From assembly GCF_014236855.1 (NCBI RefSeq), contig NZ_CP051261.1, positions 3,596,001 to 3,660,000 on the forward strand: a stretch of DNA of 64,000 nt, in the 5' to 3' direction. Within the stretch, counting starts at the first letter, position 1; every line of letters starts with the position of its first letter. Below the pieces are notes generated by a model. It made no database searches and was not told where the DNA came from. It saw nothing but the letters and a program-made list of their open reading frames with translations. Positions 6,381 to 27,416 of the stretch are shown one piece after another. Origin of the DNA: Xanthomonas sp. SI. Lineage in GTDB: Bacteria > Pseudomonadota > Gammaproteobacteria > Xanthomonadales > Xanthomonadaceae. The position numbers were made by a program, and so were the translations under genes.

Positions 6381-6430
6381 GCGCCACAACGCAAAAGGCC
6401 GCCCGGAGGCGGCCTTTTGCGTTGTGGCGC
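6381..6430 (-). terminator. Strong terminator of the cyo operon
   Basis: A perfect inverted repeat: two 23-nt arms around a 4-nt loop (CGGA), with an A-run in one arm and a T-run in the other (GGCGGCCTTTTGCGTTG). It starts 10 nt after the cyoD stop. The fold is symmetric, so it could stop transcription from either side. Confidence 0.9.
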
Positions 6431-6440
6431 TTGCGCGCCC

Positions 6441-7399: not shown

Positions 7400-7402
7400 G
7401 GT

Positions 7403-10732: not shown

Positions 10733-11536
10733 CTACGGCCGCGCCGCCGCCTTCTTCTGCTTGATCTGCTCGATGTAGTTGTAGATGGTGAAGCGGCTGA
10801 CCCCCAACGCCGCCGCCACCTGCTCCACGCTGTTGCGGATCAGGAACAGGCCGCGATGCATCATCGCCTCCACCGCGTACATCTTCTCTTCCTTGTTCAT
10901 CAGCGCCGGCGGCTTCATGAAGCGCTTGACCGCGTCGTCGATGATCTCCTGCATCATCGCCTCCAGCCCGACCTCGCCGGCGGGCGCCTCGCTGCGCGGC
11001 GGCTTGGCCTTCCGGTGCAGCATCTGCTCCAGCCAGCCATGGGCCATCTCGAACACGGTCATGTCGGCGTTGAGGCACAGCGCGGCCACCGGCTGGCCGG
11101 CGCCGTCGCGGAACAGCAGCGTGGCCGAACGCAGATGGCGGCCGGCGGCATTGGTGGTCTGGTACTCGTCGACGATCGCCCAGCTGATCGTGCCGGTGCC
11201 CGCCACATCGCGGTAGAGCTCGCTGAAACCGGCGTCCTCGCGCGGGCCGCTGAGGATCGGGTCGCCGAGGTTGCGCCCGGACACATGGCCGTTGGCGATC
11301 GCCAGCACTGAGGCCCCGGGCACGGACAGGTCGTGCAGCACCACTTCGATGTTCTCGCCGATCACCCCGCCGAGCAGGGCCACCACCGGCTTGAGCAGTT
11401 CGAACAGGTCGCGCACCTGCACCCCCGCGCCCAGCCCTTGCGCAGGTGCGGGAGCAGGTAGCGCCTTGCCAGGCTTGCGCTTGGCGGCGGGTGCCCCGCC
11501 CTTGTGCGGCGCCCCGCCCTTTTTCGCTGTTGCCAT
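10733..11536 (-). CDS. YheO/DauR-like transcriptional regulator (PAS-like domain plus HTH)
   Basis: About 267 residues. After a Lys/Ala/Pro-rich tail, residues ~40-160 match the YheO PAS-like ligand domain (LLKPVVALLGGVIGENIEVVLHDLS, then ATLLFRDGAGQPVAALCLNADM). The C-terminus carries the family helix-turn-helix (EQVAAALGVSRFTIYNYIEQIKQ). Characterised relatives such as DauR control D-amino acid use. The gene is divergent from the ten-gene peptidase operon, and the shared 272-bp region holds a promoter with an embedded palindrome, so it is the obvious candidate regulator. Start: ATG at 11534-11536; an in-frame ATG 16 codons upstream is an alternative. Confidence 0.85.
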   Translation of the reverse strand: MATAKKGGAPHKGGAPAAKRKPGKALPAPAPAQGLGAGVQVRDLFELLKPVVALLGGVIGENIEVVLHDLSVPGASVLAIANGHVSGRNLGDPILSGPREDAGFSELYRDVAGTGTISWAIVDEYQTTNAAGRHLRSATLLFRDGAGQPVAALCLNADMTVFEMAHGWLEQMLHRKAKPPRSEAPAGEVGLEAMMQEIIDDAVKRFMKPPALMNKEEKMYAVEAMMHRGLFLIRNSVEQVAAALGVSRFTIYNYIEQIKQKKAAARP

Positions 11537-11660
11537 CGAATCGTTCCGTCCCAGAGGAGTGCCCGGCGCATGCGCACCGGCCATCTTGCCGGCTGCGCCG
11601 GCGGGCGTCGAGACGGCAGCGCAACGGCACAGCTCCGCACAGGAACGATGTGACGCGGTC

Positions 11661-11689
11661 TTGACATACAAATTATTTTTGTATATCAA
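11661..11689 (+). promoter_or_regulatory. Candidate sigma-70 promoter of the S10/RidA operon
   Basis: A perfect -35 TTGACA (11661-11666), a 17-nt spacer and a fair -10 TATCAA (11684-11689) lie ~120 nt before the first S10 gene. The segment is a conspicuous AT-rich island in otherwise GC-rich DNA. The predicted start site near 11696 would give a leader of about 112 nt. Confidence 0.6.
11666..11684. promoter_or_regulatory. Palindromic operator candidate between regulator and S10 operon
   Basis: A perfect inverted repeat, ATACAAA - 5 nt - TTTGTAT, fills the spacer between the -35 and -10. A dimeric HTH protein bound here would cover the promoter. The likely binder is the divergent YheO/DauR-like regulator; this is inference from position. 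Confidence 0.55.
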
Positions 11690-11808
11690 CAAACTGTTGA
11701 AGCAACACCGAGCTCGCGGCGCCAGGGGGTGACGCGGGCCAGCCAACCACAGTCGCGCCCTCGCATCGGGCGCCGCGCCACGCTGCACCGGGGACAACCA
11801 AGCAGACC

Positions 11809-13410
11809 ATGTCGACGTCCATGCCGTCCGCCAGATCGTGCTGTCGCGCCACTGCCTGGCTGCGTCCGTTCGCAGTTGCGGCGGCGCTGTGGCTGGCCGG
11901 CTTGGCCAGCGCCGCGGCGGTGGTGCCGGCGCATGCCGACGTGCAGGTGCGTTCGGCCGGCAGCGTCGCCGTCGAGGGCCATGGCACGCTGCGCTACGCC
12001 GCCGAGGCCGGGTTGCTGCCGATCCACGACGATCCGACCGGGCGGCTGCTGGCGTCGGTGTTCTTCGTCGGCTACAGCGTCCCGGCCAGTGCCGGCGCAA
12101 CGCGGCCGCTCACCTTCCTGTGGAACGGCGGCCCCGGCTCCAATGCCGCGCAGCTGCACATGGGCGCGGGTCCGCGGCGCCTGGATACCGCAGATCGCCT
12201 GCCGGACTGGGCACCGGCGCAGAGCGAGCGGCCGCTGGTCGAAAACGCCGACAGCTGGCTGGGCGCGAGCGATCTGGTATTCGTCGATCCGCTGGGTACC
12301 GGCTACAGCCGCGCGGTCGACGCCAAGGACCTGCCGACGCTGTACACCTCGCATGGCGATGCCGAAACCATCGCCGAAGCGATCCGGGTCTATCTCACCC
12401 GCCACGACGCCTGGGACCGCCCGCTGTACCTGGCCGGCGAAAGCTATGGCGTGACCCGCGCAATGCTGGTCGCCGCAGCGTTGCAGCGACGCGGCATGCC
12501 GGTACGCGGCGTGGTGCTGGTGTCCTACAACTTCGACCTGGGTACGCCGCCGGCAGCCTACCCGGAAGACGCGTTGAACGTGCCGCAGTTCACCGCCGCG
12601 GCGCACTACCACCATCGCCTCGACGCCATGCTGCAGGCGCTGGACGAAACGGCCGCGGTCGCCCAGGCGCAGGCGTGGATGCAGCAGGACTACCTGCCGT
12701 TCCTGTCCGCGCCGGCGGCGCAGACGCTGGAATCGCGGCGCCGGATTCTGGCTGCACTGGCGCGCTTCAGCGGCCTGCGCGCGCAGGACATCGATGCCAA
12801 GCAACTGACCATCTCCACCGCCGATTTCGCCGACCGCCTGCTCGCCGACCAGGGCCTCGAGCTGGGCCGCTACGACCTGCGCATGACCGCGCTGCGGCGC
12901 GCCAAGGACGCCCCGTGGATGCCGGGCATCGACCCGAGCCTGCTGCCGATGGCCGGCCTGATGAACGGCACCTCGCGCGTGTTCAACCGCTATCTGCGCC
13001 AGCAGCTCGGCTTCGAGAGCGACCTGCTGTATCGCGGCCCGTTCGGTAATGCGTTCCACCCGCTGCCGCGCTACACCGACCCGAAGTCCGGCATGCCGGA
13101 CGACTGGATGGCGCAACTGTGGGATTTCTCGCAGAAGCTTCCCGAAGGCGCCGACGCGCCGCTGCGCAAGGCGATGGACCAGGACCCGCAGCTGCGCGTG
13201 CTGAGCCTGCGCGGCCGCTACGACGGCTGGCCCTGCGAAAGCTCGGTGGAGACCGCCCGCGCCGCCGGCCCGCGCTACGCCGCGCGGGTGACCAACCTGT
13301 GCCTGCAGGGCGGACACATGTGGTACTCCGAACGCGCCAGCCGTGCCCAGGGCCGCCGCGCGTTCGAGGCCTTCCTCGACGCCTCTCCCTCGCTTCCCAG
13401 CACGGACTAG
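11809..13410 (+). CDS. Peptidase S10 (serine carboxypeptidase-like), first of three
   Basis: 533 residues. S10 enzymes remove C-terminal amino acids from peptides with a Ser-Asp-His triad and work at acidic pH. Seen here: a signal peptide (LRPFAVAAALWLAGLASAAA), the oxyanion/substrate motif LWNGGPGSNAAQ (~105-114), nucleophile Ser212 in GESYG, Asp in LRGRYDGWPCE and His in QGGHMWYSE near the end. All three catalytic residues are in place, so the enzyme is probably active in the periplasm. It is the first gene of the operon and is 3 nt from the next S10 gene. The ribosome site before the ATG is weak (GGGGA 14 nt away); an in-frame ATG 4 codons later is possible. Confidence 0.9.
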   Translation: MSTSMPSARSCCRATAWLRPFAVAAALWLAGLASAAAVVPAHADVQVRSAGSVAVEGHGTLRYAAEAGLLPIHDDPTGRLLASVFFVGYSVPASAGATRPLTFLWNGGPGSNAAQLHMGAGPRRLDTADRLPDWAPAQSERPLVENADSWLGASDLVFVDPLGTGYSRAVDAKDLPTLYTSHGDAETIAEAIRVYLTRHDAWDRPLYLAGESYGVTRAMLVAAALQRRGMPVRGVVLVSYNFDLGTPPAAYPEDALNVPQFTAAAHYHHRLDAMLQALDETAAVAQAQAWMQQDYLPFLSAPAAQTLESRRRILAALARFSGLRAQDIDAKQLTISTADFADRLLADQGLELGRYDLRMTALRRAKDAPWMPGIDPSLLPMAGLMNGTSRVFNRYLRQQLGFESDLLYRGPFGNAFHPLPRYTDPKSGMPDDWMAQLWDFSQKLPEGADAPLRKAMDQDPQLRVLSLRGRYDGWPCESSVETARAAGPRYAARVTNLCLQGGHMWYSERASRAQGRRAFEAFLDASPSLPSTD

Positions 13411-13413
13411 CCC

Positions 13414-14928
13414 ATGCGCTCCACGACCGCACGCCCCGGCCCTGTGCCGCCGAAGACCCGATTGCTGCAGCCGCTGCTGGCGCTGGCCCTGGCGCTGGCC
13501 TCGCCTGCCGGCAACGTGCACGCCGCCGAGCTGGGCTTCGTCGATCCAACCACGCTGGACCAGGTGTCGTTGCCCACGCCGGTCACCACCCAGCACCGCG
13601 GCGTGTTCAACGGCCAGCGCATCGCCTACGCCGCGACGGTGGAAACCTATGCCACTACTGACGCCGAGGGGCACCCGGCGGCACGCCTGGTCTCCACCGC
13701 CTACGTCGCAAAGTCCGCCGCCGGCGCGCGGCCGCTGATCTTCGCCTTCAACGGCGGCCCGATCGCCGCCAGCACGCCGCTGCATTTCGGCCTGCTCGGT
13801 CCGCAGCGGTTGGCCGTGCCCGACGACCTGCAGGCCAACGCCGCCGGCTTCAAGCTGGTGGACAACCGCTATTCGCCGCTGGACGTTGCCGACATCGTCA
13901 TCTTCGATCCGGCCAGCACCGGCTACAGCCGCGTCGCCAAGGGCGTGGCGCCGGCCAGCCAGTTCTCCACCCGCGCCGACGCGCGCCAGCTCGCGCAACT
14001 GGTGGCGGCGTGGCTGGACCGGCACGGCCGGCGCGGCTCGCCGGTGTACCTGCTGGGCGAAAGCTACGGCACGCTGCGCGCGCCGGAAGCGGCCACGCAA
14101 CTGCAGGTCGCCGGCATCGGCGTGGACGGCATCGTCCTGCTCGGTCAGGCCGCCAACATCCTGGAATACGCGCAGCGGCGCGACAACATCGTCAGCTACG
14201 CGGTGTCGCTGCCGACCCTGGCCGCGCTCGGCTGGTACCACGGCAAGGTCGATCGCAAAGGCCGCAGCCTCGCCCAGTTCGTCGATGAAGCCGCCGCCTA
14301 CGGCCGCGAGCGCTACCTGAGTACCTTGTTCCTCGGCAACCGCGCCAGCGCGCAGCAACGCGAAGAGGTGGCGCAGGCGTTGCAGTCCTTCACCGGCCTG
14401 TCGGCGGACGCATGGCTCAAGGCCGACCTGAAGCTGTCCAAGGTCGCCTACGCGCGCCAGCTGTTCCCGGGCCGGATCCTGGCGTCCAGCGATGGTCGCT
14501 ACCTGCTCGACGCGCAGGGCAATTCCGGCAGCGTGCCCGACTACAACGCCGTCGCCGAACGCTACTACCGGCAAGTACTGAACGTCCCCGCGCAGGCGGG
14601 CCACTACTCCACCGCGCTGCCGACCTCCAGCGACTTCAACGCCTGGGACTGGGACGCCAACAAATCGCCGTTCGGCGACTACCCGTGGGTCGGACAACTG
14701 CGCCAGCTGCTGGTAGCCAATCCGAAGTGCCGGCTGCTGGTCGGCAATGGCTACTACGACAGCCAGACCACGATCGGCGCGATGGATTATCTCGCCGCGC
14801 AGTCGGGCTTTCCGATGCAGCAGGTGCGCACTCGCTACTACGAGGGCGGACACATGATGTACACGGTCGAGCACACCGCCGCCGGCCTCGCCGACGACAT
14901 CCGGCAGATGGTCCGCCGCACCTGGTGA
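13414..14928 (+). CDS. Peptidase S10-like protein, second of three
   Basis: 504 residues with a signal peptide (LLQPLLALALALASPAGNVHA). The triad is present: Ser217 in LGESYGT, Asp in VGNGYYDSQT and His in EGGHMMYT. The usual NGGPGSS loop, which shapes the oxyanion hole and binds the substrate carboxylate, is altered to NGGPIAAST (~113-121). This suggests different specificity from the first S10 protein. It is separated from the upstream gene by 3 nt and from the TonB receptor by 81 nt. It is clearly a diverged paralogue, not a recent duplicate. Confidence 0.88.
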   Translation: MRSTTARPGPVPPKTRLLQPLLALALALASPAGNVHAAELGFVDPTTLDQVSLPTPVTTQHRGVFNGQRIAYAATVETYATTDAEGHPAARLVSTAYVAKSAAGARPLIFAFNGGPIAASTPLHFGLLGPQRLAVPDDLQANAAGFKLVDNRYSPLDVADIVIFDPASTGYSRVAKGVAPASQFSTRADARQLAQLVAAWLDRHGRRGSPVYLLGESYGTLRAPEAATQLQVAGIGVDGIVLLGQAANILEYAQRRDNIVSYAVSLPTLAALGWYHGKVDRKGRSLAQFVDEAAAYGRERYLSTLFLGNRASAQQREEVAQALQSFTGLSADAWLKADLKLSKVAYARQLFPGRILASSDGRYLLDAQGNSGSVPDYNAVAERYYRQVLNVPAQAGHYSTALPTSSDFNAWDWDANKSPFGDYPWVGQLRQLLVANPKCRLLVGNGYYDSQTTIGAMDYLAAQSGFPMQQVRTRYYEGGHMMYTVEHTAAGLADDIRQMVRRTW

Positions 14929-15009
14929 CATGACATTCCGCAGTCCCCGCAGCACCCGTGGTTCGCGCTCCACCCATCCCGCCCACCGCCCGCCAGACGA
15001 GTCCCGCCC

Positions 15010-17253
15010 ATGTCATCCGTAGCCCGCCGCAACCGTCTCTCCCAGTTCATTTCGCGCGCCCTGTGCTGCCCGGCCAGCGCGCTCCTGCTGCTGCCGTCCA
15101 TCGCGCTCGCCCAAGACGACGGCGCCACAGCGGCCAAGCAGCTGGACACCATCACCGTGACCGCGCAGAAGCGCAGCGAGCGGCTGCAGGACGTGCCGAT
15201 GTCGATCCAGGTACTCAACACCGAGAAGATGAGCAGCGAAGGCAGCTACAAGCTGGCCGACTATTTCGCGCAGTTGCCCGGCCTGTCCTACATCCAGTCG
15301 CCGATGAGCAGCAACATCGTGCTGCGCGGCATCGCCACCGATTCCGGCCTCGGTAGCCGTCCGACCTCGGGCATCGTCATCGACGACGTGCCTTACGGGT
15401 CGGCGCTCAGCACCGGCGCGATCCCCGATCTCGATCCGTCCGACCTGCAGCAGATCGAAGTGCTGCGCGGCCCGCAGGGCACGCTGTACGGCGCCAGCAG
15501 CATGGGCGGGCTGATCAAGTACGTGATGACCGATCCGGACACCAGCGCGACCTTCGGCCGGGTCGAGGCCGGCGGCTCCACGGCCGCGCACGGCGGTTCC
15601 GGCTACAACGCGCGCACCTCGGTGAACCTGCCGTTCTCCGACCGCTTCGCGCTGCGGGTCAGCCTGTTCCAGCGCCAGGACCCGGCCTTCGTGCACAACA
15701 CCAACAGCGGCGACGAGAACGACAGCCAGGTGCGCGGCGGCCGCGTCTCGGCGCTGTGGAACGTCAGCGACACGGTGACCGTGCGTTCCTCGGCGCTGTT
15801 CCAGGACACCGAGACCGGCTCCAGCTCGGTGGTCGACACCGATCCCGACCTGCATCCGCTGTACGGCCAGTACGGCCACGACCGCATCAGCGGCGGCGAC
15901 ACCTTCAAGGGCCAGGTGCGCTTCTACACCACCAAGGTCAGCTGGGATCTGGGCTGGGCGATGCTGGACAGCATCAGCGGCTACGCCCAGCACCGCAGCC
16001 GCGCCTACCAGGACGTGGGCTACACCACCATCGGCCGGCTCGCGCCGGTGTTCGCCGGCATCTTCGGCCTGGACAGCGACAACCCCAGTTCGCTGATCGA
16101 CAACCGCTACAACACCGACCGCACCACCCAGGAAGTGCGCCTGGTCTCGCAGGGCGAGCATGCGCTGGACTGGCAGGTCGGCGCGTTCTACAGCGACGAG
16201 GAAGCCAAGAGCACGCAGAACTTCTACATCGCCGACAAGACCAGCGGCACCATCTACCGCGACTTCCCGCTGCTGGTCTCGCTGGGCGACAGCAGCTACC
16301 GCGAGAAGGCGGTGTACGCCGACGGCACCTACCATTTCACCCCGCAGTTCGATGTCCAGTTCGGCGCCCGCTATGCGCGCAACAGCCTGCGCGAGAACAG
16401 CGATACCGGCGGCCTGCTGCAGGATCCGAACCAGAGCTTCGACAGCAACAAGGACAGCGCCACCACCTACCTGTTCTCGCCGCGCTACCGCTTCAACGAC
16501 GAGCTGATGACCTACCTGCGTGTGGCCTCCGGCTACCGTGCCGGCGGCAGCAACGGCACCCTGGTGGCCAACGTCCCGTTCTCCTACGACTCCGACAGCC
16601 TGTGGAGCTACGAGCTGGGCCTGAAGACCCAGTTGCTGGACCACTCGCTGAGCCTGGATGCGGCGCTGTTCTACATCGACTGGAGCGACCTGCAGATCTC
16701 GCAGGTGGAGCCGACCCTGGGCAGCAGCTATACCACCAATGCCGGCAAGGCCAGCAGCCAGGGCCTGGAGCTGTCGGTCAACTGGGTGCCGTCGGCCGAC
16801 TGGAAGGTCACCGCCAGCTACGCCTACACCGACGCCACCCTGGCGCAGGACATCCCCGGCTACACCGAGGGTTCCTCCGCCTACGGCAAGGACGGCAATC
16901 GCCTGCCGTACTCGGCGCGCAACAGCGCCTCGGCCTCGCTCAAGCGCTATTTCCCGCTGGGCAGCAACCTGGAAGGCTTCGCCGGCGCCGACGTGGCCTA
17001 CATGGGCGATCGCGACATGGAGTTCACCACCTCGGCCAGCATCCCGCGTATCCACCTGCCCAGCTACACCACCGTCGGCCTCAACGCCGGCGTACAGGGC
17101 CAGGCCTGGAGCGCCACGCTGTACGTGCGCAACCTCACCGACGAGGTCGGCTACATCAACGCCAACCGCCGCGGCTCGCTGGCCAGCTCGCCGCTCGGCG
17201 CGACGCTGATCCAGCCGCGCACGGTCGGCCTGACCCTGGCCTGGGATTATTGA
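15010..17253 (+). CDS. TonB-dependent outer membrane receptor
   Basis: 747 residues. These are gated beta-barrels that import scarce or large solutes across the outer membrane using TonB energy. Seen: a signal peptide (ISRALCCPASALLLLPSIALAQ), a TonB box (DTITVTAQKR, ~46-55), a plug domain with VLRGIATDSG and IEVLRGPQGTLYGASSMGGLIKY, then a long barrel rich in alternating aromatic strands, ending in TVGLTLAWDY with a terminal aromatic residue. The substrate is unknown. Its place among carboxypeptidases suggests a peptide or peptide-like ligand rather than iron, although receptors with this plug are often labelled siderophore receptors. Confidence 0.93.
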   Translation: MSSVARRNRLSQFISRALCCPASALLLLPSIALAQDDGATAAKQLDTITVTAQKRSERLQDVPMSIQVLNTEKMSSEGSYKLADYFAQLPGLSYIQSPMSSNIVLRGIATDSGLGSRPTSGIVIDDVPYGSALSTGAIPDLDPSDLQQIEVLRGPQGTLYGASSMGGLIKYVMTDPDTSATFGRVEAGGSTAAHGGSGYNARTSVNLPFSDRFALRVSLFQRQDPAFVHNTNSGDENDSQVRGGRVSALWNVSDTVTVRSSALFQDTETGSSSVVDTDPDLHPLYGQYGHDRISGGDTFKGQVRFYTTKVSWDLGWAMLDSISGYAQHRSRAYQDVGYTTIGRLAPVFAGIFGLDSDNPSSLIDNRYNTDRTTQEVRLVSQGEHALDWQVGAFYSDEEAKSTQNFYIADKTSGTIYRDFPLLVSLGDSSYREKAVYADGTYHFTPQFDVQFGARYARNSLRENSDTGGLLQDPNQSFDSNKDSATTYLFSPRYRFNDELMTYLRVASGYRAGGSNGTLVANVPFSYDSDSLWSYELGLKTQLLDHSLSLDAALFYIDWSDLQISQVEPTLGSSYTTNAGKASSQGLELSVNWVPSADWKVTASYAYTDATLAQDIPGYTEGSSAYGKDGNRLPYSARNSASASLKRYFPLGSNLEGFAGADVAYMGDRDMEFTTSASIPRIHLPSYTTVGLNAGVQGQAWSATLYVRNLTDEVGYINANRRGSLASSPLGATLIQPRTVGLTLAWDY

Positions 17254-17261
17254 TGCGCATC

Positions 17262-17285
17262 GCCGGCCGCCGCACGGCGGCCGGC
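17262..17285 (+). terminator. Intercistronic hairpin after the TonB receptor gene
   Basis: A perfect 11-bp stem (GCCGGCCGCCG / CGGCGGCCGGC) with a 2-nt apex lies 8 nt after the receptor stop, followed by a C/T tract with no real T-run. It may attenuate or stabilise the 3' end, so that the receptor gene and the downstream enzymes are made in different amounts. It is not a full terminator by sequence. Confidence 0.4.
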
Positions 17286-17311
17286 CCTTCTTCCAGTTGC
17301 GGAATTCCTCG

Positions 17312-18796
17312 ATGAAATGGATCCACGGCCTGGCCCTGCTGCTGTGCGCGGCGCTGCCGTTCGCCGCAGCCGCCGACGACGCGGCGCCGCTGCCGAAACC
17401 GACTCTGCTGTCCAGCCCGCAGCAGGCCCGCCTCGGCGAGCAGCGGCTGCGTTATCGGGTCAGCTTCGACCAACTAGATTTCGCCGGCGCCGACGGCGCC
17501 CGCGTCGCCTCGATCAGCGCCATCGGCTATCTGGCCGAGCGTACCGATGACGACACGCGGCCGGTGCTGTTCGCCTTCAACGGCGGGCCGGGCGCATCGT
17601 CGGTGCTGCAGGTCGAAGGCCTCGGCCCGCGGCTGCGCGTGCGCGACGGCAAACGGCAGCGCCTGATCGCCAATTCGCACAGCATTCTCGACGTCGCCGA
17701 CCTGGTGTTCATCGATCCGCCCGGCACCGGCTTCAGCCAGGCCCCTACCGATGCCGCCGCACGCGCGCGCTACTGGTCCGACCACGGCGACGCCAAGGCG
17801 GTGGAGGCGATGATTCGGCACTGGCTGAAGACGCACGGACGCGAACGCGCGCCGCTATACATCGCCGGCGAAAGCTACGGCGGCTACCGGCTCGCCCTGC
17901 TCGCCGCGGACATCGCCGACCTGCGTCCGGCCGGCGTGCTGCTGGTCTCGCCGCTGCTCGATGCCAGCAGCGGCGACGACAGCCCCGGCAACGACCTGCG
18001 CGCTGTGTTCGACCTTCCCTCGCTGATCGTCGCCGCCGCCGCCCACGGCAAGGGCGAGCTGGCCGGACAACCGGTGGAAAGCGTCTATGCGCAGGCGCGT
18101 ACGTTCGCGCTCGGCGATTACGCGCAGGCCCTGCTGCAGGGCAGCGCCCTGCCGGCCGACGCACGCAGCCGCATCGCTGCGCGCCTGGCCGCGCTGCTGG
18201 GCCTGCCGGCGCAAACGCTGCTGGCGGCGGACCTGCGCCCGGACGTGGAAAGCTTCCGGCTCGGCGTGCTCGCCGCCGACGGCCGGCAGATCGGCCGGCT
18301 CGACAGCCGCGTCGCCGCGCCGCTGCCGGCGCCGCAAGCGGCGGACAACGGCCGGCCCTCGGCCGCCAACGATCCGGCGCTCGGCCTGGGCCGCAGCAAC
18401 CAGATCACCTCCGCGCTGATGGCCGACTACCTGCACGGCCTGTTCGGCGCTGGTTTGCCGCGCGACTATGTCAGCCTGGACATCGACATCGCCATGGCCT
18501 GGCGCTTCAGCGCCGACGATGGCGCCGGCCCGCGCCCGTTCGGCAGCGCGCTGCGCTTCAATCCCACACCGAACTTGGCCCGCCTGGCGCAGGCCAATCC
18601 CGGCTTCCATGTGCTGGCGCTCAACGGCTATTACGACCTGGCCGTGCCCGCGCTCGGCCCCTGGTACGCGCTGCACCACAGCGCCCTGGATCCGGCGCGC
18701 ATCGATTTCCGCCTGCTGCCCGGCGGCCATGCGGTGTTCGCGGAAGACGCATTGCGCCCGCAATTGCACGGCCTGCTGAAGGACTTCCTACAATGA
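17312..18796 (+). CDS. Peptidase S10 (serine carboxypeptidase-like), third of three
   Basis: 494 residues with a short signal peptide (IHGLALLLCAALPFAAAA). The canonical loop FNGGPGASSVLQ is present, with nucleophile Ser188 in GESYGG, Asp in ALNGYYDLAVPA and His in LPGGHAVF. It is the most canonical of the three S10 proteins here. ATG at 17312 is chosen over an upstream TTG because it begins the basic-hydrophobic signal. Its stop overlaps the next start (ATGA), so it is translationally coupled to the amidohydrolase. Confidence 0.9.
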   Translation: MKWIHGLALLLCAALPFAAAADDAAPLPKPTLLSSPQQARLGEQRLRYRVSFDQLDFAGADGARVASISAIGYLAERTDDDTRPVLFAFNGGPGASSVLQVEGLGPRLRVRDGKRQRLIANSHSILDVADLVFIDPPGTGFSQAPTDAAARARYWSDHGDAKAVEAMIRHWLKTHGRERAPLYIAGESYGGYRLALLAADIADLRPAGVLLVSPLLDASSGDDSPGNDLRAVFDLPSLIVAAAAHGKGELAGQPVESVYAQARTFALGDYAQALLQGSALPADARSRIAARLAALLGLPAQTLLAADLRPDVESFRLGVLAADGRQIGRLDSRVAAPLPAPQAADNGRPSAANDPALGLGRSNQITSALMADYLHGLFGAGLPRDYVSLDIDIAMAWRFSADDGAGPRPFGSALRFNPTPNLARLAQANPGFHVLALNGYYDLAVPALGPWYALHHSALDPARIDFRLLPGGHAVFAEDALRPQLHGLLKDFLQ

Positions 18797-20826
18797 GCCG
18801 CACGCTGCCGCTGTCCATCGCCCTCGCCATCGCCTGCACGTTCGCCGGCCACGCCGCGCGCGCCGCCACCGCGCCGCAATCGCTGGTGCTGATCGCCAAC
18901 GGCGAGAACGTCGGCTACCTGAAGGCCACGGCCGACGGCGACACCTACGAGGTCGATTACCACGTCGACAACAACGGCCGCGGCCCCAAGCACCACGAGA
19001 CCATCGTGCTCGGCGCGCATGCGCTGCCGCTGGCGTGGTCGATCGCCGGCACCTCGCTGATGGGCGGCAAGGTCGCCGAGCGTTATCAATGGCGCGACGG
19101 CATCGCCGAATGGAGCAGCCAGGCCGACAGCGGCCGCAAGCAGCAGCCGCAACCGAAGCTATACATCGCCAACGACAGCAGCCCCTGGGCGATGTGGACC
19201 TACGCCAAGGCCTTGCTGGCCGCACCCGACCATGCCCTGGACGTGCTGCCCAGCGGCCGCATGCAGCTGGAACTGGTCGGCACGCTGGCGCTGCAGGGCC
19301 AGGCCGGGGCGCCGCCGCTGCAGGCGCGGCTGCTGCGGCTGTCCGGCCTGGACCTGGAACCACACTACCTCGCCGTCGATGCCGACGACGCGCTGCTGGC
19401 CGACATCGACGACGACGCCGTGGCGATCCGCGACGGCTACCAGGCGCAGGTGGCGACCATCGCCGATGCGGTGAAGGCGCAGCAGTTCGCGCATGCGCAG
19501 GCCTTGCAGCGCCAGCTCGCGCATCCGCTGACGCGCGATCTGTGGCTGCGCAACGTGCATGTGTTCGATCCGGTCAACGGACTGCGCAGCGACGCGGTGA
19601 ACCTGCACGTCGCCGACGGGCACATCGTCTCGATGGACGCGCGCTGGCAGCCGGCGCCCGGCGACAGCGTCTACGACGGCAACGGCGGCACGGTGATCCC
19701 CGGCCTGCACGACATGCATTCGCACAGCACCCTGTCCTCCGGGCTGTGGTACCTCGCCGCGGGCGTCACCAACACCCGCGACATGGGCAACGACAACGCC
19801 TTCCTGCTCGACCTGACCGCGCGCATCGAACGCGGCGAGATCGCCGGCCCGCGCATCGTGCGCAATGGCTTCCTGGAAGGCCGCAGCCCGTATTCGGCGC
19901 GCAACGGCTTCGTCGTCGATACGCTGGACGACGCGCTGAAGGACGTCGCCTGGTACAAGGCCCACGGCTACTGGCAGATCAAGCTCTACAACTCGATGAA
20001 CCCGGCCTGGGTGGCGCCGATCGCCGAACGCGCGCATGCGCTGGGCATGGGCGTCACCGGCCACATCCCGGCCTTCACCAACGCCGACGCGATGATCGCC
20101 GCCGGCTACGACGAGATCACCCACATCAACCAGCTGATGCTCGGCTGGGTGCTCTCGCCCGAAGAAGACACGCGCACGCCGCTGCGGCTGACCGCGATGC
20201 GGCGCGTGGCCGACCTCGACCTCGACGCGCCGAACGTGCGCCACACGCTGGAGCTGATGCGCCAGCGCGACATCGCCCTGGACACCACCGAGGTGATCGT
20301 GGAACGGTTGATGCTGAGCCGTGCCGGCAGCGTGCTGCCCGCCGATGCGCCGTACCTGTCGCACATGCCGATCGCCTACCAGCGCTACCGCCAGCGCACC
20401 TTCGTCCCCGATCTCGATGCGCAGGCCGACGCGCAGTACCGCCGCGCGCTGGACAAGACCCTGCAACTGATCGGCCGCCTGCATCGCCAGGGCACCGTGC
20501 TGCTGCCCGGCACCGACGACAGCACCGGCTTCACCGTGCACCGCGAACTGGAACTGTACGTCGCCGCCGGGCTGACCCCGCAGCAGGCGCTGCGCGCCGG
20601 CACCTGGCAGAGCGAGCTGCATTTCGGCCGCACCGACCGGCTCGGCAGCGTGCATCCGGGCAAGCAGGCCGACTTCGTGCTGCTGCCCGGCGATCCGACC
20701 ACCGACATCTCCGCGATCCGCCAGCCCGCGCTGGTGGTGAAGGACCAGACCCTGTACCTGCCCGCCGAGATCTACCGCGCCCTGGGCGTGGCCCCGTTCG
20801 CGCCGGCCCCGAAGACACTTCAATGA
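18793..20826 (+). CDS. Exported amidohydrolase family enzyme
   Basis: 677 residues. This is the metal-dependent amidohydrolase superfamily (imidazolonepropionase/Xaa-Pro dipeptidase branch). A signal peptide (LPLSIALAIACTFAGHAARA) is followed by ~220 residues of extra N-terminal domain. Then comes the hydrolase barrel: GLHDMHSH (HxH metal pair), IKLYNS (bridging Lys), VTGHIPAF and EITHIN (two further His) and LLPGTDDST (catalytic Asp). All ligands are present. Relatives cleave cyclic amides or dipeptides with imide-like bonds. The start overlaps the S10 stop, and the stop overlaps the RidA start, both as ATGA, so it is tightly coupled within the operon. Confidence 0.87.
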   Translation: MSRTLPLSIALAIACTFAGHAARAATAPQSLVLIANGENVGYLKATADGDTYEVDYHVDNNGRGPKHHETIVLGAHALPLAWSIAGTSLMGGKVAERYQWRDGIAEWSSQADSGRKQQPQPKLYIANDSSPWAMWTYAKALLAAPDHALDVLPSGRMQLELVGTLALQGQAGAPPLQARLLRLSGLDLEPHYLAVDADDALLADIDDDAVAIRDGYQAQVATIADAVKAQQFAHAQALQRQLAHPLTRDLWLRNVHVFDPVNGLRSDAVNLHVADGHIVSMDARWQPAPGDSVYDGNGGTVIPGLHDMHSHSTLSSGLWYLAAGVTNTRDMGNDNAFLLDLTARIERGEIAGPRIVRNGFLEGRSPYSARNGFVVDTLDDALKDVAWYKAHGYWQIKLYNSMNPAWVAPIAERAHALGMGVTGHIPAFTNADAMIAAGYDEITHINQLMLGWVLSPEEDTRTPLRLTAMRRVADLDLDAPNVRHTLELMRQRDIALDTTEVIVERLMLSRAGSVLPADAPYLSHMPIAYQRYRQRTFVPDLDAQADAQYRRALDKTLQLIGRLHRQGTVLLPGTDDSTGFTVHRELELYVAAGLTPQQALRAGTWQSELHFGRTDRLGSVHPGKQADFVLLPGDPTTDISAIRQPALVVKDQTLYLPAEIYRALGVAPFAPAPKTLQ

Positions 20827-21350
20827 ACCCGATCCCGCATCCCATGCAGACCCCGCACGTCCTCCCCTCCGACACCGTGAGCGCGCGCCTGCGTGCGCTC
20901 GGCATGATCTTGCCGCCACCGCTGCGCGTATCCGACGGAGTGATCCTGCCGTTCGCGCCGGTGCACGTGATCGGCACCCGCGTGCTGATCTCCGGCCACG
21001 GCCCGCAACACGTCGACGGCAGCATGGCCGGCGGCGTCGGCCGCGTCGGCGACGAACTGGACGAAGCCCAGGGCTATGCCGCCGCGCGCGCCACCGCCCT
21101 GTCGATGCTGGCCAGCCTGGAACGCAGCCTGGGTAGCCTGGACCGCGTCAAGCGCTGGGTGCGCGTGTTCGGCATGGTCCGCTGCGCGCCCGGCTTCCAG
21201 CGCCTGCCGAACGTGATCAACGGCTGCTCGGACCTGCTGCTGGCGCTGTGGGGGCCGGAACTGGGCCAACATGCGCGCAGCGCGGTCGGCATGGCCGAGC
21301 TTCCGTTCGGCATCCCGGTCGAGATCGAAGCCGAAGCCGAACTGCATTGA
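20823..21350 (+). CDS. RidA/YjgF-family protein, cytoplasmic type
   Basis: 175 residues, longer than classic RidA (~128) owing to an N-terminal extension, and with no signal peptide. RidA proteins hydrolyse reactive enamine/imine intermediates (such as 2-aminoacrylate) released by PLP enzymes. The C-terminal signature HARSAVGMAELPFGIPVEIE keeps the arginine that binds the substrate carboxylate in the archetype. The first ~40 residues are Pro-rich. It lies directly before a PLP-dependent enzyme, and a second, exported RidA follows that gene. Start overlaps the amidohydrolase stop (ATGA). Confidence 0.88.
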   Translation: MNPIPHPMQTPHVLPSDTVSARLRALGMILPPPLRVSDGVILPFAPVHVIGTRVLISGHGPQHVDGSMAGGVGRVGDELDEAQGYAAARATALSMLASLERSLGSLDRVKRWVRVFGMVRCAPGFQRLPNVINGCSDLLLALWGPELGQHARSAVGMAELPFGIPVEIEAEAELH

Positions 21351-21378
21351 ACTGACCCTCGCCTGCCGGAACGCCACC

Positions 21379-22665
21379 ATGGACACGCGCTCGCCCCGTT
21401 TCGATCCCACCCGCCGGCACTTGCTGGCGGCCGCCGGCGCGCTGCCGCTGTCCGCCGCGCTGTCCGGCCTCGCCGGCACCAGCAACGCGACAACCGCCGC
21501 TGCGGCCACCGCGCCCACGCCCGCACGCGGCCTGCAAGGCCTCGGCAATGCCTTCGAGATCGCCGGCTGCTATCTCAACGGCGCCTACATGCACCCGGTC
21601 AGCCGCGCCGCCGCGCAGGCGCAACGCGGCTTCCTCGATGCGCGGCTGATGAACGCCAATGCCGACAAGGTCGACATGGGCGGCGACCGCGAGCGCGCGA
21701 TGGCCGCGCTGGGCCGGCTGCTGCATGCCGACCGCGACGAACTGGCGTGGATTCCCAGCACCATGGTCGGCGAGAACCTGGTGTTGAACGGCCTCGGCAT
21801 TCCGCACAGCCGCCAGCGCGTGGTCACCGACGCCTACCACTTCAACGGCTCGCTGTTCATGTACATGGAACTGGCCAAGCGCGGCCTCGACGTGCAGGTG
21901 GTGCGCCCGCACGACAACCGCATCCGCCTGGAGGATCTGGACAAGGCGATCACCCCGGGCACGCGCCTGGTCGCGCTGACCCTGGTGTCCAGTGTCAACG
22001 GCTTCCAGCACGACCTCAAGGCGGTCTGCGACCTGGCCCACAGCCGCGGCGCGCTGGTCTACGCCGACCTGATCCAGGCCGCCGGCAACACCCCGATCGA
22101 TCTGCACGGCAGCGGCGTGGACTTCGCCGCCAGCTCCACCTACAAGTGGCTGATGGGCGACTTCGGCCTGGGCGTGATGTATGCGCGCCGCGCCAGCCAG
22201 GACGCCTTGCGGCAGATCGTCTGGGGCTACCGCCAGGAGGGCGAGACGGTCTCGCACCTCCTGCCGTTCGACCCGCCCGGCGAGCCGCCGCTGGAAACGC
22301 AGGCGATCGGCGGCCTGGCCGGCAAGATCGAAGTCGGCACGCTCAACAATTCCGCCGCCGCCGCGCTGGCGACCTCGCTGGAACTGATCGAGCGCATCGG
22401 CGTGGACAGCATCCGCCAATGGCGGCAACCGCTGCTGGCGCGCCTGCACGCCGCGATCCCGCGGCTGGGCTTCGACCCGATGACCCCGCCGGATTCCAGC
22501 TCTGCGCTGGTGTCCTTCGCCCAGCGCGACGTCGGCAAGCGGCTGGCGCCGAAGCTGAAGGCGGCCGGCGTCGAAGTCACCCTGTACCGCAATTACTTCC
22601 GTGTGTCGCCGTCGTTCTACAACGGCAGCGACGATGTCGAACGCCTGATCGAGGCCCTGTCATGA
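21379..22665 (+). CDS. Tat-exported PLP-dependent enzyme, aminotransferase class V fold
   Basis: 428 residues. The class V fold includes cysteine desulfurases, isopenicillin N epimerase and C-S lyases. The N-terminus has a twin-arginine signal (DPTRRHLLAAAGALPLSAALSG), so it probably folds with PLP in the cytoplasm and is exported. Seen: NLVLNGLGIP (phosphate-binding region), YADLIQAAGNTPIDL (Asp/Gln contacts to the pyridine ring), and the Schiff-base Lys in AASSTYKWLMGDFGLG. The best guess is a beta-lyase or epimerase rather than a simple aminotransferase, but the reaction cannot be read from sequence. The stop overlaps the next RidA start. Confidence 0.87.
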   Translation: MDTRSPRFDPTRRHLLAAAGALPLSAALSGLAGTSNATTAAAATAPTPARGLQGLGNAFEIAGCYLNGAYMHPVSRAAAQAQRGFLDARLMNANADKVDMGGDRERAMAALGRLLHADRDELAWIPSTMVGENLVLNGLGIPHSRQRVVTDAYHFNGSLFMYMELAKRGLDVQVVRPHDNRIRLEDLDKAITPGTRLVALTLVSSVNGFQHDLKAVCDLAHSRGALVYADLIQAAGNTPIDLHGSGVDFAASSTYKWLMGDFGLGVMYARRASQDALRQIVWGYRQEGETVSHLLPFDPPGEPPLETQAIGGLAGKIEVGTLNNSAAAALATSLELIERIGVDSIRQWRQPLLARLHAAIPRLGFDPMTPPDSSSALVSFAQRDVGKRLAPKLKAAGVEVTLYRNYFRVSPSFYNGSDDVERLIEALS

Positions 22666-23105
22666 AGCGACTCCCGTTGCTACTGCTGTGCACGCTGCTG
22701 CCATGGACCGCACAGGCCGCGCCGGCAGCGCTGCACCACTACGGCACCGCGCCCGGCGCGCCGTTCTCGGCCGCGGTGCGTGCCGGCGACACGCTCTACG
22801 TCTCCGGCCAGATCGGCAGCGCCGCGCAGGGCGGATTGCCCGAGGAGTTCAGCGCCCAGGCCAACAACGCGCTGGACAACGTCGCCAGCGCCCTGGCCCT
22901 GGCCGGCGCCGGCATGGACGACATCGCCAAGTGCACGGTGATGCTGACCGACATGGCGCAATGGCCCGCGTTCAACGCCCTGTACGTGCGCCGCTTCAAA
23001 CCCGGCCACCTGCCCGCACGCAGCGCCATCGGCGCCAACGCCCTGGCGCTGGGCGCCAAGGTGGAAATCGAATGCATCGCCTACCTGCCCCAGGCCAAAC
23101 CATGA
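22662..23105 (+). CDS. Exported RidA-family enamine/imine deaminase
   Basis: 147 residues with a clear Sec signal (MKRLPLLLLCTLLPWTAQA). The mature 128-residue part is close to archetypal RidA in length and pattern: GDTLYVSGQIG, ALALAGAGMDDIAKCTVMLTD and the signature PARSAIGANALALGAKVEIE with the substrate-binding Arg. RidA is normally cytoplasmic, so an exported copy is unusual. It is coupled by ATGA overlaps to the Tat-exported PLP enzyme before it and to the metallopeptidase after it. The probable role is to clear enamine/imine products formed by that PLP enzyme in the periplasm. Confidence 0.9.
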   Translation: MKRLPLLLLCTLLPWTAQAAPAALHHYGTAPGAPFSAAVRAGDTLYVSGQIGSAAQGGLPEEFSAQANNALDNVASALALAGAGMDDIAKCTVMLTDMAQWPAFNALYVRRFKPGHLPARSAIGANALALGAKVEIECIAYLPQAKP

Positions 23106-24805
23106 CCGCACGCACCTCCCGCTGGCTCCCCCTCGCCCTGCTGCTGGCGCCGGCCTGCGCCGCGCTTGCCGCCGAACCACCGGCCGCCCCAGTTCCGCTG
23201 GACGTGGTGCTAACGCCCAAGGCCGACGCCGGCCAGATCGGCGCGCTGCAGGTGCACCTGCACCTGCCCACGCCCAAGGTCGCCGCGGGCGCGCCATTGC
23301 TGCGCATGCCGGTGGAGCTGGTGTCCACGCCGACCGCCGCCTACAGCGCCGAACAGATCCAGGTGCGCGACGCGCGCGGCGCCCTGCCGCTGCGCGCCGT
23401 CGACGAAGCGCCGGACCCGTCCGGCAAGTACCGCAACTACCTCGCCACCCGCGCCAGCGTCGGCGACGTCGACGTGGACTACGCCACGCCGCCGCGCAAG
23501 GTCGATGCCGACACCCGCAACGGCCCGCTGTTCGACCTGCGCGCGCAGGACGGCGGCCTGATGGGCGCCGGCGTCTACTTCATGGCGCTGCCGCCGGGCG
23601 AGGCGCCGCGCCAGATCCACCTGCGCTGGGACCTGAGCGCACTGCCGGCCGGCGCGCGCGGCGTGTGGAGCGTCGGCGAAGGCGAGCAACGCACGACCGG
23701 GCCGACCGACCTGCTGCGCTTCTCCTACTACGCCGTCGGCGCGATGCACCGGGTACCGGAAAACGACGACGACGTCTTCCACTTCTACTGGATGGACACC
23801 CCGCCGTTCGACGCGCAGCTGCTGGCCAAGCAGACCGGCCAGCTGTACCGCTACATGGCGCGCTTCTTCGGCGACGACGGCTCGGCCTATCGCGCCTTCG
23901 CCCGCCGCAACCCGTACCCGGCCGGCGGCGGCACCGGCCTGGCGCACTCCTTCATGTTCGGCTACGGGCCGCAGGGCCAGACCATCGCCGAGGGCCCGCA
24001 GGCGCTGCTGGCGCACGAAATGGCCCACACCTGGCCCAAGCTCGACGGCGAGGAACACGCGCTCACCGCCTGGTACACCGAAGGCACCGCCGAGTTCTAC
24101 TCGCTGCTGCTGTCGCTGCGCGCCGGCGTGTACGCCAAGGACGCCTTCCTGCAGGCGATCAACCACCGCGCCGACGGCTACTACGACAACCCGTTCCGCG
24201 CGCTCGACAACAGCGCCGCCGGCGAACGCTTCTGGAAGGACGCGCGCGCCCAGCGCGTGCCGTACGGCCGCGGCTTCATGTACCTGGTGAGCGTCGATGC
24301 GCAGTTGCGCCAGCACGGCCGGCAGGCGCATTCGGTGGACGACCTGGTGCTGGAAGTGCTCAAGCGCCAGCGCGCCGGCGACACCATCGGCGTGCGCGAA
24401 TGGCGCGCGATGGTGGTGCGCGAACTCGGCGCCGGCGCCGGCAGCGACTTCGACGCGATGGTCGCCGGCAAGCTGATCGTGCCGCCCGCGCCGGTGTTCG
24501 GCTGCTATCGCGTGGTGCCGGCGCCGCACCAGCCGTTCGAACTCGGCTTCGACCGCATGCGCATGGGCGTGGTCAAGAACCTGCTGCCCGAGTCTGCCGC
24601 GGCCCGTGCCGGCGTGCAGGAAAACGACCGCATCGTCGAATACACCCCGCTGGAACAGGCGATGGCCGACGAGCACATGCATATGCAGCTGAAACTGGAG
24701 CGCGACGGCAAGCCGCTGCAGGTGGACTACCTGCCGCGCAGCGCGCGCGTGGACGCCTGGCGCTTCGCCGTCGATCCGGCGCTGGCCGCCCGTTGTTCGC
24801 CCTGA
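23102..24805 (+). CDS. Exported HExxH metallopeptidase, M61-like with degenerate PDZ, first of two
   Basis: 567 residues with a signal peptide (WLPLALLLAPACAALAA). The catalytic block is LLAHEMAHTW (HExxH) and the third zinc ligand is the Glu of WYTEGTAEFYS. The C-terminus carries a short PDZ-like module (MGVVKNLLPESAAARAGVQENDRIVEYTP). Overall order resembles M61, but sequence around the active site differs from the standard M61 gene at 4.4 kb. Two cysteines near the ends of the last domain may pair. Start overlaps the RidA stop (ATGA). Confidence 0.83.
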   Translation: MTARTSRWLPLALLLAPACAALAAEPPAAPVPLDVVLTPKADAGQIGALQVHLHLPTPKVAAGAPLLRMPVELVSTPTAAYSAEQIQVRDARGALPLRAVDEAPDPSGKYRNYLATRASVGDVDVDYATPPRKVDADTRNGPLFDLRAQDGGLMGAGVYFMALPPGEAPRQIHLRWDLSALPAGARGVWSVGEGEQRTTGPTDLLRFSYYAVGAMHRVPENDDDVFHFYWMDTPPFDAQLLAKQTGQLYRYMARFFGDDGSAYRAFARRNPYPAGGGTGLAHSFMFGYGPQGQTIAEGPQALLAHEMAHTWPKLDGEEHALTAWYTEGTAEFYSLLLSLRAGVYAKDAFLQAINHRADGYYDNPFRALDNSAAGERFWKDARAQRVPYGRGFMYLVSVDAQLRQHGRQAHSVDDLVLEVLKRQRAGDTIGVREWRAMVVRELGAGAGSDFDAMVAGKLIVPPAPVFGCYRVVPAPHQPFELGFDRMRMGVVKNLLPESAAARAGVQENDRIVEYTPLEQAMADEHMHMQLKLERDGKPLQVDYLPRSARVDAWRFAVDPALAARCSP

Positions 24806-24830
24806 TCCCCACCTGCTGCGATCCTTGCCG

Positions 24831-26570
24831 ATGAAGATGCCACGCCACCGCTACCTGTTCCTGGCCCTCGCCGCGGCCGCGTCTCCGGCCATGGCCGCGA
24901 CCGATGCGCCGTACGCGATCACCATCCACGCGCAAGCGGACACCGCCGGCAGCAGGATCGAAGCACTGCTGGTGGACGAAGCCATCCCGCTGCCGGCCAC
25001 CCCGGCCGGCACCACCGTGCTGGCGATGCCGCACGTGACCAGCAACGTGCCCACCATCGCTGCCAGCGTTGGCGAACTGGCCGCGCGCGACGACCGCGGC
25101 GCGTTGCAGCTGCGCTATCGCGACCAGGGCGAAGGCCCAGCCCGGCAGCGCGAGTGGTACGCCAATCGCGCTGTCGCCGGCATCCTGCGTTTCTCTTATC
25201 GCGCGGCGATGACCGAAGCGCTGGCCGCGCGCGGCGCCGCACCGCCGATCGAACTGCGCAGCGAGGAAGGCGCGTTCTCCGGCGCCGGCGCCACCTTCCT
25301 GCTGCATCCGACCAGCGGCCGGCACGACATCGACCTGCACTGGGACCTGTCGGCACTTGGCGCAGGCGCGCACGCCGTCAGCAGCCTGCAGGACCGCAAC
25401 GCCCACGACGTCGGCATGGAAGCGCTGGACAGCAGCTACTTCATGGCCGGCAGGATCGGCCTGTACCCGCAGGCGCCCGACGCCACCGGCTTCTTCTCCG
25501 CCTGGCAGGGCAACACCCCGTTCGACGCGGAAAAACTGCTGACCTGGACCCAACGGCTGCGCCAGCACTACCAGGCGTTCTTCGCCGTGCCGGCCACGCC
25601 CTACGGCGTGTTCCTGCGCCGCAATCGGGTCAACCCCGGCGGCGGCATGGGCATGTACAACTCCTTCGTCGTCACCTACGACGACGACCGCGGCAACGAC
25701 CCGCAACAGCTGGAACTGACCCTCGCCCACGAGATGTTCCACACCTTCCAGCCGCACATGAGTTCGCAGTACGACGGCGAAAGCCTCGCCGATGCCTGGT
25801 TCAACGAAGGCACGGCGGTGTTCTACCAGGCGCGCCTGCCGTTCCGCTACGGCATGATCGACGCCGACGCGTTCCTGAAGGACCTCAACTACACCGCCGC
25901 CCGCTACTACACCAACCTTCTCGGCAGCGCCCCCAACAGCGACGTGGCGACGAAGTTCTGGCAGGACACCCGCATCCGCACCCTGCCCTACGACCGCGGC
26001 TTCCTGTACTTCGTCACCGTCGACGACGCCCTGCGCAAGGCCAGCGGCGGCCGCAAATCCCTGGACGACCTGATCCTGGCGATGCTGCATCGCCGGCAAG
26101 GCGACAAGCCGCTCGGCATCGCCGACTGGGAAGCACTGCTGCGCGACAACCTCGGCGAAACAGCGGTCCGCCAACTGCACGCCATGCTCGACGGCGCCGC
26201 ACCGCTACCGGCCAGCGACGCCTTCGGCCCCTGCTTCGAACGCATCTCCCAACCCATGCGCCGCTACGAACTAGGCTTCGCCCCCGCGGTGCTGACCGAA
26301 TCCCCACGCATCGTCCGCGACCTGATCCCCGGCTCGGCCGCTGCCAAGGCCGGCGTGCGCAACGGCGACGAAATCACCCGCCCGGTCGGCCAGGATCAGT
26401 TGCAGGGCGAACAGGACGGCATCCTCACTTTGCAGTTGCTGCGGGATGGCAAGCCGTTGACGGTCTCGTACAAGCCACGCGGCGAAACCGTGGCGACGTG
26501 GCAGTGGAAGCGCAAGCAGGGCCCTGGGGAAACCACTTGCTCGCTGCCTGCTACTACCCAGGCGCAATGA
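24831..26570 (+). CDS. Exported HExxH metallopeptidase, M61-like with degenerate PDZ, second of two
   Basis: 579 residues, a paralogue of the preceding gene with the same architecture: signal peptide (YLFLALAAAASPAMA), beta-rich N-terminal half, LAHEMFHTFQPHMSS (HExxH), WFNEGTAVFY (third ligand Glu, 21 residues after the second His against 17 in its neighbour) and a C-terminal PDZ-like block (IVRDLIPGSAAAKAGVRNGDEI). The different spacing suggests a changed pocket. It starts 25 nt after the upstream stop and is the last gene of the operon. A GACGAC/GTCGTC hairpin without T-run lies just after the stop. Confidence 0.83.
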   Translation: MKMPRHRYLFLALAAAASPAMAATDAPYAITIHAQADTAGSRIEALLVDEAIPLPATPAGTTVLAMPHVTSNVPTIAASVGELAARDDRGALQLRYRDQGEGPARQREWYANRAVAGILRFSYRAAMTEALAARGAAPPIELRSEEGAFSGAGATFLLHPTSGRHDIDLHWDLSALGAGAHAVSSLQDRNAHDVGMEALDSSYFMAGRIGLYPQAPDATGFFSAWQGNTPFDAEKLLTWTQRLRQHYQAFFAVPATPYGVFLRRNRVNPGGGMGMYNSFVVTYDDDRGNDPQQLELTLAHEMFHTFQPHMSSQYDGESLADAWFNEGTAVFYQARLPFRYGMIDADAFLKDLNYTAARYYTNLLGSAPNSDVATKFWQDTRIRTLPYDRGFLYFVTVDDALRKASGGRKSLDDLILAMLHRRQGDKPLGIADWEALLRDNLGETAVRQLHAMLDGAAPLPASDAFGPCFERISQPMRRYELGFAPAVLTESPRIVRDLIPGSAAAKAGVRNGDEITRPVGQDQLQGEQDGILTLQLLRDGKPLTVSYKPRGETVATWQWKRKQGPGETTCSLPATTQAQ

Positions 26571-27350: not shown

Positions 27351-27416
27351 AGAGAAAATCTTCGTTACCCTAATAATTGCACGGATATCAGTTAAACAGG
27401 CCAAAGGAGAGGCACA

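Follow-up and report, generated by a model that had tools for sequence, protein, structure and literature searches.

In the 64,000-nucleotide (nt) stretch of Xanthomonas sp. SI DNA analyzed here (contig NZ_CP051261.1, positions 3,596,001 to 3,660,000; hereafter the window), ten co-directional genes, A–J (11809–26570, + strand), form an operon beside a divergent YheO-type regulatory gene, R, and we interpret this operon, with moderate confidence, as a catabolic one that has spread horizontally and acts on a peptide or a peptide-like amide, with pyridoxal phosphate (PLP)/RidA chemistry as its final part. The products are three S10 serine carboxypeptidase-like proteins (A, B, and D), a TonB-dependent receptor (C), an amidohydrolase (E), two RidA-family proteins (F and H), a class V PLP enzyme (G), and two M61-like metallopeptidases (I and J). 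The ten-gene operon is real: its gene set, export signals, linkage, catalytic motifs, and conserved operator-like palindrome can be read directly from the DNA; the class of substrate (likely peptide-like), the order of steps, the type of reaction, and repression by R are what we propose from them. We posit horizontal spread because the gene kit occurs patchily and because some of its loci lie on plasmids.

An earlier account of this DNA, made from the letters alone (the sequence-only reading), had named these families in ten co-directional genes and a divergent YheO-type gene, and Pfam matches and motifs bear it out (Table 1); it had also counted five junctions with 4-nt overlaps, of which we find four (D/E, E/F, G/H, and H/I), the other five junctions being gaps of 3, 81, 58, 28, and 25 nt. 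All five relatives measured (L007 and L017–L020) have the same four overlaps. Export signals, called by eye and with a hydropathy script, are predicted for the three S10 proteins, E, G (a twin-arginine, Tat, signal), and the two HExxH proteins I and J, as the sequence-only reading had it, and also for H; in F, none was seen by eye. The host, whose genome is one 5.25 Mb contig, is close to Xanthomonas bonasiae, R and the operon proteins being 93%–98% identical to their counterparts in X. bonasiae L007; the G+C content of the window is 68%.

The operon is rare in its own family, and parts of it stay together. A search of 297 Xanthomonadaceae genomes at E ≤ 1e-60 gives G in 8, the host among them, and at 1e-70 G is confined to the host among 369 sampled genomes of the class. 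Eight relatives were read: X. bonasiae L007 and the seven other genomes with G, one of which is perhaps conspecific with it. All eight have C, E, G, and J together within 20 kb; over the same span, R, F, and H are each present in seven and I, B, and D each in five, so that the core in the family is R-C-E-F-G-J, with the S10 genes, I, and in places H variable. A is full length in four relatives and has an internal deletion in L017, where at 3856–4047 only its first 27 and last 37 residues are left; the other nine genes and R match over their whole, or nearly whole, length. The sequence-only reading had envisaged a conserved ordered gene set: the linkage holds across genomes, and among the loci read only those of Xanthomonas retain the order. 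As a conserved block outside Xanthomonas, gene order is rejected; there, the kit is reshuffled and parts of it are missing.

R has the PAS_6 and HTH_22 domain pair of a YheO-type regulator and adjoins the operon in seven of eight other Xanthomonadaceae loci; a YheO gene is also found in the Variovorax and Streptomyces loci discussed below. The palindrome TCAACAAACTGTTGA occupies the expected −10 position downstream of TTGACA and upstream of A, and because of this position over the promoter R is predicted to be a repressor. All 8 YheO-linked Xanthomonadaceae loci (the window, L007, and L017–L022) have both TTGACA and a perfect TCAACAnnnTGTTGA, with 0.00 palindrome matches expected from shuffles of the window. 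In Variovorax paradoxus, the YheO and PLP genes have a perfect 15-mer TCAACAnnnTGTTGA between them, and a second copy has one mismatch (2 matches in the locus versus 0.01 expected), and the Streptomyces locus has two imperfect copies (1 and 2 mismatches) adjoining its YheO gene (5 matches with ≤2 mismatches in the locus versus 0.25 expected). In the host genome, the single perfect site is that of the operon, and 13 one-mismatch sites compare with 2 for a reversed control. TCAACAnnnTGTTGA is likely an operator common to the Xanthomonadaceae and Variovorax loci. A second inverted repeat, TTGACATACAAA / TTTGTATATCAA (11661–11689), recognized by eye, covers the −35 to −10 region and is not conserved in L022; it is possibly a site for another regulator.

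A YheO-type domain pair alone does not imply DauR, the regulator of the D-arginine operon dauBAR, in which DauB belongs to the OCD family. The present operon resembles dauBAR in its type of regulator, and the OCD family is also represented in the sphingomonad loci described below; it is unlike dauBAR in having peptidases and a receptor and in showing no flavin adenine dinucleotide (FAD) dehydrogenase domain in its ten genes. The regulator and the OCD genes would suit the use of D-amino-acid peptides, with a racemase-like PLP enzyme and R as a DauR relative, an alternative that we consider very improbable: no D-amino-acid dehydrogenase or racemase family is matched among the ten genes, and the two OCD proteins scanned fall below the cut-off of each model listed. 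The substrate with D- or modified residues suggested by the sequence-only reading likewise gains no direct support, the ten genes giving no match to a FAD D-amino-acid dehydrogenase.

G, the presumed center of the final chemistry, keeps K256, D230, and R408 invariant in 39 alignment rows. The cysteine-bearing loop of SufS is missing from the G profile, relative to which it is an insertion in five alignments (three of them versions of one B. subtilis enzyme, one C361A), and with no such loop and 94.2 of 475.1 bits, G is rejected as a SufS/CsdA cysteine desulfurase. The C-DES cystine lyase is a tied structural match to G, which is not functional proof, and in VIA-align no PvdN, LmbF, or CcbF was seen by title among the 50 rows listed for G, a result that argues against none of them. 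According to the passages available, LmbF catalyzes a β-elimination and CcbF an oxidative deamination (PMC11794154, PMC7497351). Like G, these two and PvdN, which is periplasmic, are PLP enzymes, and they act on peptides or cysteine conjugates; unlike G, which sits with peptidases and RidA, they serve biosynthesis; the comparison of LmbF and CcbF with G is one of described function. An operon whose products tailor or recycle a siderophore-like peptide in the periplasm, with G acting as PvdN does in pyoverdine maturation, would agree with a Tat-exported class V PLP enzyme and with a receptor whose best NCBIfam model is TonB-siderophor. Nevertheless, C reaches only 162.8 of the 223.5 bits of that model, below its cut-off, the NCBIfam equivalog model rejects G as PvdN (43.2 of 650 bits), and the ten genes include many hydrolases and no synthetase, and we give this alternative very little credence.

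RidA proteins need for their activity an arginine that precedes the final strand. Both F (HARSAVG) and H (PARSAIG) keep it and are predicted to be active; H scores 90.4 of 106.25 bits with an NCBIfam Rid subfamily model, and F matches no NCBIfam model. In Variovorax, the kit is limited to R, the PLP enzyme, and an exported RidA, and in Sphingobium TomTYG65 to the PLP enzyme and an exported RidA, with two TonB receptors (27%–28% identity) in the same 29 kb; in both, a Tat signal is seen on the PLP enzyme and an export signal on RidA. The RidA of Sphingomonas formosensis has no clear export signal. A hand count of 35 PLP loci, restricted to the locus itself, gave RidA in 12, OCD in 21, both in 2, and neither in 0, leaving out L127 (genome G1242; two PLP genes and OCD), which would be the 22nd OCD-only locus. 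As strong statistics, this complementarity (Fisher 1e-7) is set aside, since the PLP tree needs only ∼3 changes, and the alternation of RidA and OCD is suggestive only. The proposal that RidA partners the PLP enzyme agrees with the Xanthomonas, Variovorax, and Sphingobium loci and does not extend to most sphingomonad loci read, where a gene of the imine-reductase family OCD is found instead. As for precedents, a Gluconacetobacter cluster combines an L-amino-acid oxidase, cytochrome c, and RidA (PMC5053998); in the passages available, it is like the present operon in having a predicted-exported amino-acid-deaminating enzyme in one operon with RidA and unlike it in that this enzyme is not a PLP enzyme and that those passages mention no peptidase set.

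Turning to the hydrolases, A, B, and D all score above the S10 cut-off of 21.9 bits and have the GESYG serine and late GGH histidine; their Pfam matches span only ∼130 residues, and carboxypeptidase activity is predicted. In a tree of 19 S10 proteins, A groups with one Novosphingobium and one Sphingomonas protein (support 100/99), D with three sphingomonad proteins (99/99), and B with L076_1 (98/98), and of the S10 proteins at the Novosphingobium PP1Y locus one falls in the A clade, one in the D clade, and one is left unplaced on the B side of the tree. As judged from these sequences, the three are different S10 proteins and not a single amplified gene, and the keeping together of distinct clades speaks for separate jobs on one substrate. 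In genomes G902 and G951, all three S10 genes of each lie inside the locus; six Xanthomonas genomes without G have zero or one. I and J barely exceed the M61 cut-off of 22 bits, and in neither is the M61 N-terminal domain matched; for J, the sole solved chain at E ≤ 0.01 is 7xyo, an aminopeptidase M61. Sphingomonad lasso-peptide isopeptidase clusters use an S9-type isopeptidase and precursor genes; with these the operon shares a TonB receptor and an exported peptidase for a peptide, and it is unlike them in that its ten genes match S10 and no S9.

E, which we take to be of the COG1228 type, has the residue pattern of the amidohydrolase barrel (HxH, K, H, H, D), with H309, H311, K397, H424, H444, and D575 invariant in 33 alignment rows. 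Residues 247–671 are a prolidase/carboxypeptidase/ochratoxinase-like domain according to fold matches; a β-rich N-terminal domain of ∼220 residues, outside their span, sets E apart from the Cc2672/prolidase/ochratoxinase amidohydrolases. Ochratoxin-cleaving amidases and a bottromycin amidohydrolase are among the nearest folds, as might be expected if the system were one of detoxification, in which a peptide-like antibiotic or toxin is destroyed after receptor uptake, for protection and not for food; patchy occurrence and loci on megaplasmids would also fit. We nevertheless hold detoxification to be improbable, because the permease, aminotransferase, and imine-reductase-family genes of the sphingomonad loci point to the use of amino acids, and because no efflux gene is matched among the ten genes.

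Outside the class, the kit is also patchy. Among 398 phylum-wide genomes, G (1e-60) is found in three, that is, in its own and two others, and E in 19, its own included (22 places); the two others are those with the best E matches, and in them G and E lie on the same contig, 8 and 14 kb apart. Among the best 120 matches listed for G and for E, seven contigs are seemingly common to both lists, one of them from Shewanella in both. By itself, E was rejected as a marker of the system: at 12 loci with 32%–42% identity (L052–L063), L057 has one S10 gene, L055 weak TonB pieces, and ten no other kit member. One of them (L061, G000:C1:2221710-2223698) is a 39% identical E paralog elsewhere in the host genome, with no other kit match in 20 kb.

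In the sphingomonad family (219 genomes), G (1e-70) is present in 36 genomes and E (1e-170) in 39, with both in 33, G only in three, and E only in six (Fisher 1.4e-29, kinship ignored). The two genes are on the same contig in 27 of the 33, at ≤22 kb (median 11.7 kb), and on different contigs in six. Twenty of the 27 same-contig loci, chosen by the author, were read at 16–20 kb: all 20 contain the PLP enzyme, OCD, a TonB receptor, an Lrp regulator, and at least one S10 gene (up to four; neighboring matches of the same family were merged, and the S10 numbers are lower bounds), 19 contain E (for the twentieth, it falls in the adjoining stretch, L125), 18 an M61-like gene, 18 an amino-acid permease, 16 a class I/II aminotransferase, and two RidA. 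Gene order and strand vary among these islands, and L105 and L127 (genomes G1236 and G1242) have two different G-family PLP genes in one island. The nearest solved chains to one of the OCD proteins, OCD1, are pyrroline-2-carboxylate reductase and thiomorpholine-carboxylate dehydrogenase/mu-crystallin. The class I/II aminotransferase at L006 (21981–23192), whose relatives (40%–48% identity) are those of 16 of the 20 islands L102–L121, matches general aminotransferases among solved structures; its best models, guanitoxin GntC and capreomycidine synthase, are far below cut-off, and these scores are a weak hint of arginine-like substrates.

The kit is also carried by a linear plasmid of Streptomyces sp. 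NBC_01445 (L049). Here, an S10 gene and the YheO gene are divergent from a run with an ABC permease (and, recognized by eye, a second), an ATPase carrying oligopeptide-transporter domains, a binding protein of family 5, an amino-acid permease, a PLP enzyme, RidA, E, S10, and an M61-like gene. By eye and hydropathy, no signal-peptide-like stretch was seen in the S10 proteins, the PLP enzyme, RidA, or E; one S10 protein has a twin arginine with no hydrophobic stretch after it, and the start of the M61-like protein is uncertain. A peptide pathway in a Gram-positive cell would require just such an arrangement, an ABC importer instead of a TonB receptor and the enzymes on the inside, and the import of a peptide-like compound put forward in the sequence-only reading fits these oligopeptide-type ABC genes and the amino-acid permeases. 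The permeases of the sphingomonad and Streptomyces versions, the sphingomonad Lrp regulators, and the broad peptidase families among the ten genes could also reflect general peptide scavenging, in which the PLP enzyme and RidA process only common amino acids, serine or cysteine for example. Although it is the alternative that we take most seriously, we think it unlikely: the system is rare and patchy (8/297 genomes in the family, 3/398 in the phylum), and the retention of separate S10 clades, together with a dedicated receptor and operator, suggests a defined substrate.

Several observations weigh against a dedicated peptide-catabolic operon with PLP/RidA chemistry. L021 keeps the operator and five of the genes (C, E, F, G, and J), with S10, H, and I genes all missing within 20 kb, the M61 matches of I and J are weak, and E also occurs by itself, only L050 and L051 among 14 further E places read (20 kb) holding the kit. 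The co-occurrence figures are uncorrected for kinship. RidA is absent from 21 of the 35 PLP loci (locus only), and the RidA/OCD split, at ∼3 changes on the PLP tree, represents few independent events; moreover, RidA is not specific to the kit, because RidA-like genes (38%–45% identity) are present in all six G-negative Xanthomonas genomes searched. The OCD proteins read show no export signal by eye, whereas the PLP enzymes do. The Streptomyces PLP enzyme, of the same Pfam family, is only 26% identical to G over part of its length and may be a substitute rather than a counterpart. Against the promoter itself, a plain consensus promoter scan (+ strand) does not pick the operon promoter, and at 10500–27500 neither promoter-like sites (2 versus 1.2 expected) nor terminator-like sites (7 versus 7.5) exceed chance. 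In sum, the core claim of the sequence-only reading, an undescribed conserved pathway around one regulator, is upheld by linkage across genomes and not as regards the ordered block, the D-residues, or a RidA in most sphingomonad loci. Searches of an open-access library, which lacks most subscription journals, listed no description of the kit.

Table 1. Operon genes, regulator, and control region, with positions in the window
Feature	Position	Strand	Evidence
R: YheO-type regulator (PAS_6 + HTH_22), divergent	10733..11536	-	Pfam 94.8 + 76.2 bits
Promoter-like TTGACA (11661-11666) and palindromic operator-like TCAACAAACTGTTGA (11686-11700)	11661..11700	+	conservation, shuffles
A: S10 serine carboxypeptidase-like, predicted exported	11809..13410	+	PF00450 45.7 bits; GESYG, GGH
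B: S10 serine carboxypeptidase-like, predicted exported	13414..14928	+	PF00450 40.7 bits; GESYG, GGH
C: TonB-dependent receptor, 747 aa	15010..17253	+	Plug + beta-barrel domains
D: S10 serine carboxypeptidase-like, predicted exported	17312..18796	+	PF00450 67 bits; GESYG, GGH
E: amidohydrolase, predicted exported	18793..20826	+	PF01979 51.1 bits; invariant barrel-pattern residues; fold matches
F: RidA family (YjgF_endoribonc), without signal peptide	20823..21350	+	PF14588 45.1 bits; HARSAVG
G: class V PLP enzyme, predicted Tat-exported	21379..22665	+	PF00266 114.6 bits; twin-arginine RRHLL
H: RidA, predicted exported	22662..23105	+	PF01042 103.3 bits; hydropathy signal peptide; PARSAIG
I: M61-like metallopeptidase, HEMAH, predicted exported	23102..24805	+	PF05299 26.4 bits
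J: M61-like metallopeptidase, HEMFH, predicted exported	24831..26570	+	PF05299 23.5 bits

On one side of the operon, at 4359–10539 (− strand), the window contains a full-length classical M61 peptidase gene (M61_N, M61, TPR) and genes with COX3, COX1, and COX2 domains. On the other, at 26886–29317, a gene for an LprI-type lysozyme inhibitor is followed by one for a protein with phage-lysozyme, RTX repeat, and XVIPCD regions; the pair resembles an antibacterial effector of type IV secretion and its immunity protein, the assignment to type IV secretion coming from the family name.

For the catabolic operon that we favor, the following course can be proposed. The substrate would enter via the TonB receptor C and be shortened in the periplasm, mainly from its C terminus, by three S10 proteins of different old clades and the prolidase/ochratoxinase-type metallo-amidase E, with the M61-like metallopeptidases I and J trimming from the other end. 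G would act on the released amino acid or on the N-terminal residue of the trimmed peptide, most likely by β-elimination or oxidative deamination, to give a reactive enamine or imine that the adjacent exported RidA H could hydrolyze on site; an OCD/mu-crystallin imine reductase, acting after uptake, may stand in for RidA at most sphingomonad loci. Bound at TCAACAnnnTGTTGA over the promoter, R would keep the operon repressed and would be released by a ligand derived from the substrate. More tentatively, this may be a new catabolic route, in which a residue is broken down by a PLP enzyme outside the cytoplasm and an exported RidA clears the imine, in which lineages differ in hydrolyzing (RidA) or reducing (OCD) that intermediate, and which switches compartment, from TonB and periplasm to ABC importer and cytoplasm in Streptomyces. 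If this is correct, several groups of environmental bacteria would share a mobile kit of genes for one particular peptide-like nutrient, and RidA and PLP enzymes, usually regarded as cytoplasmic, would have in their exported forms a role in vivo; induction screening with the linked regulator and operator would offer a direct handle on the substrate.

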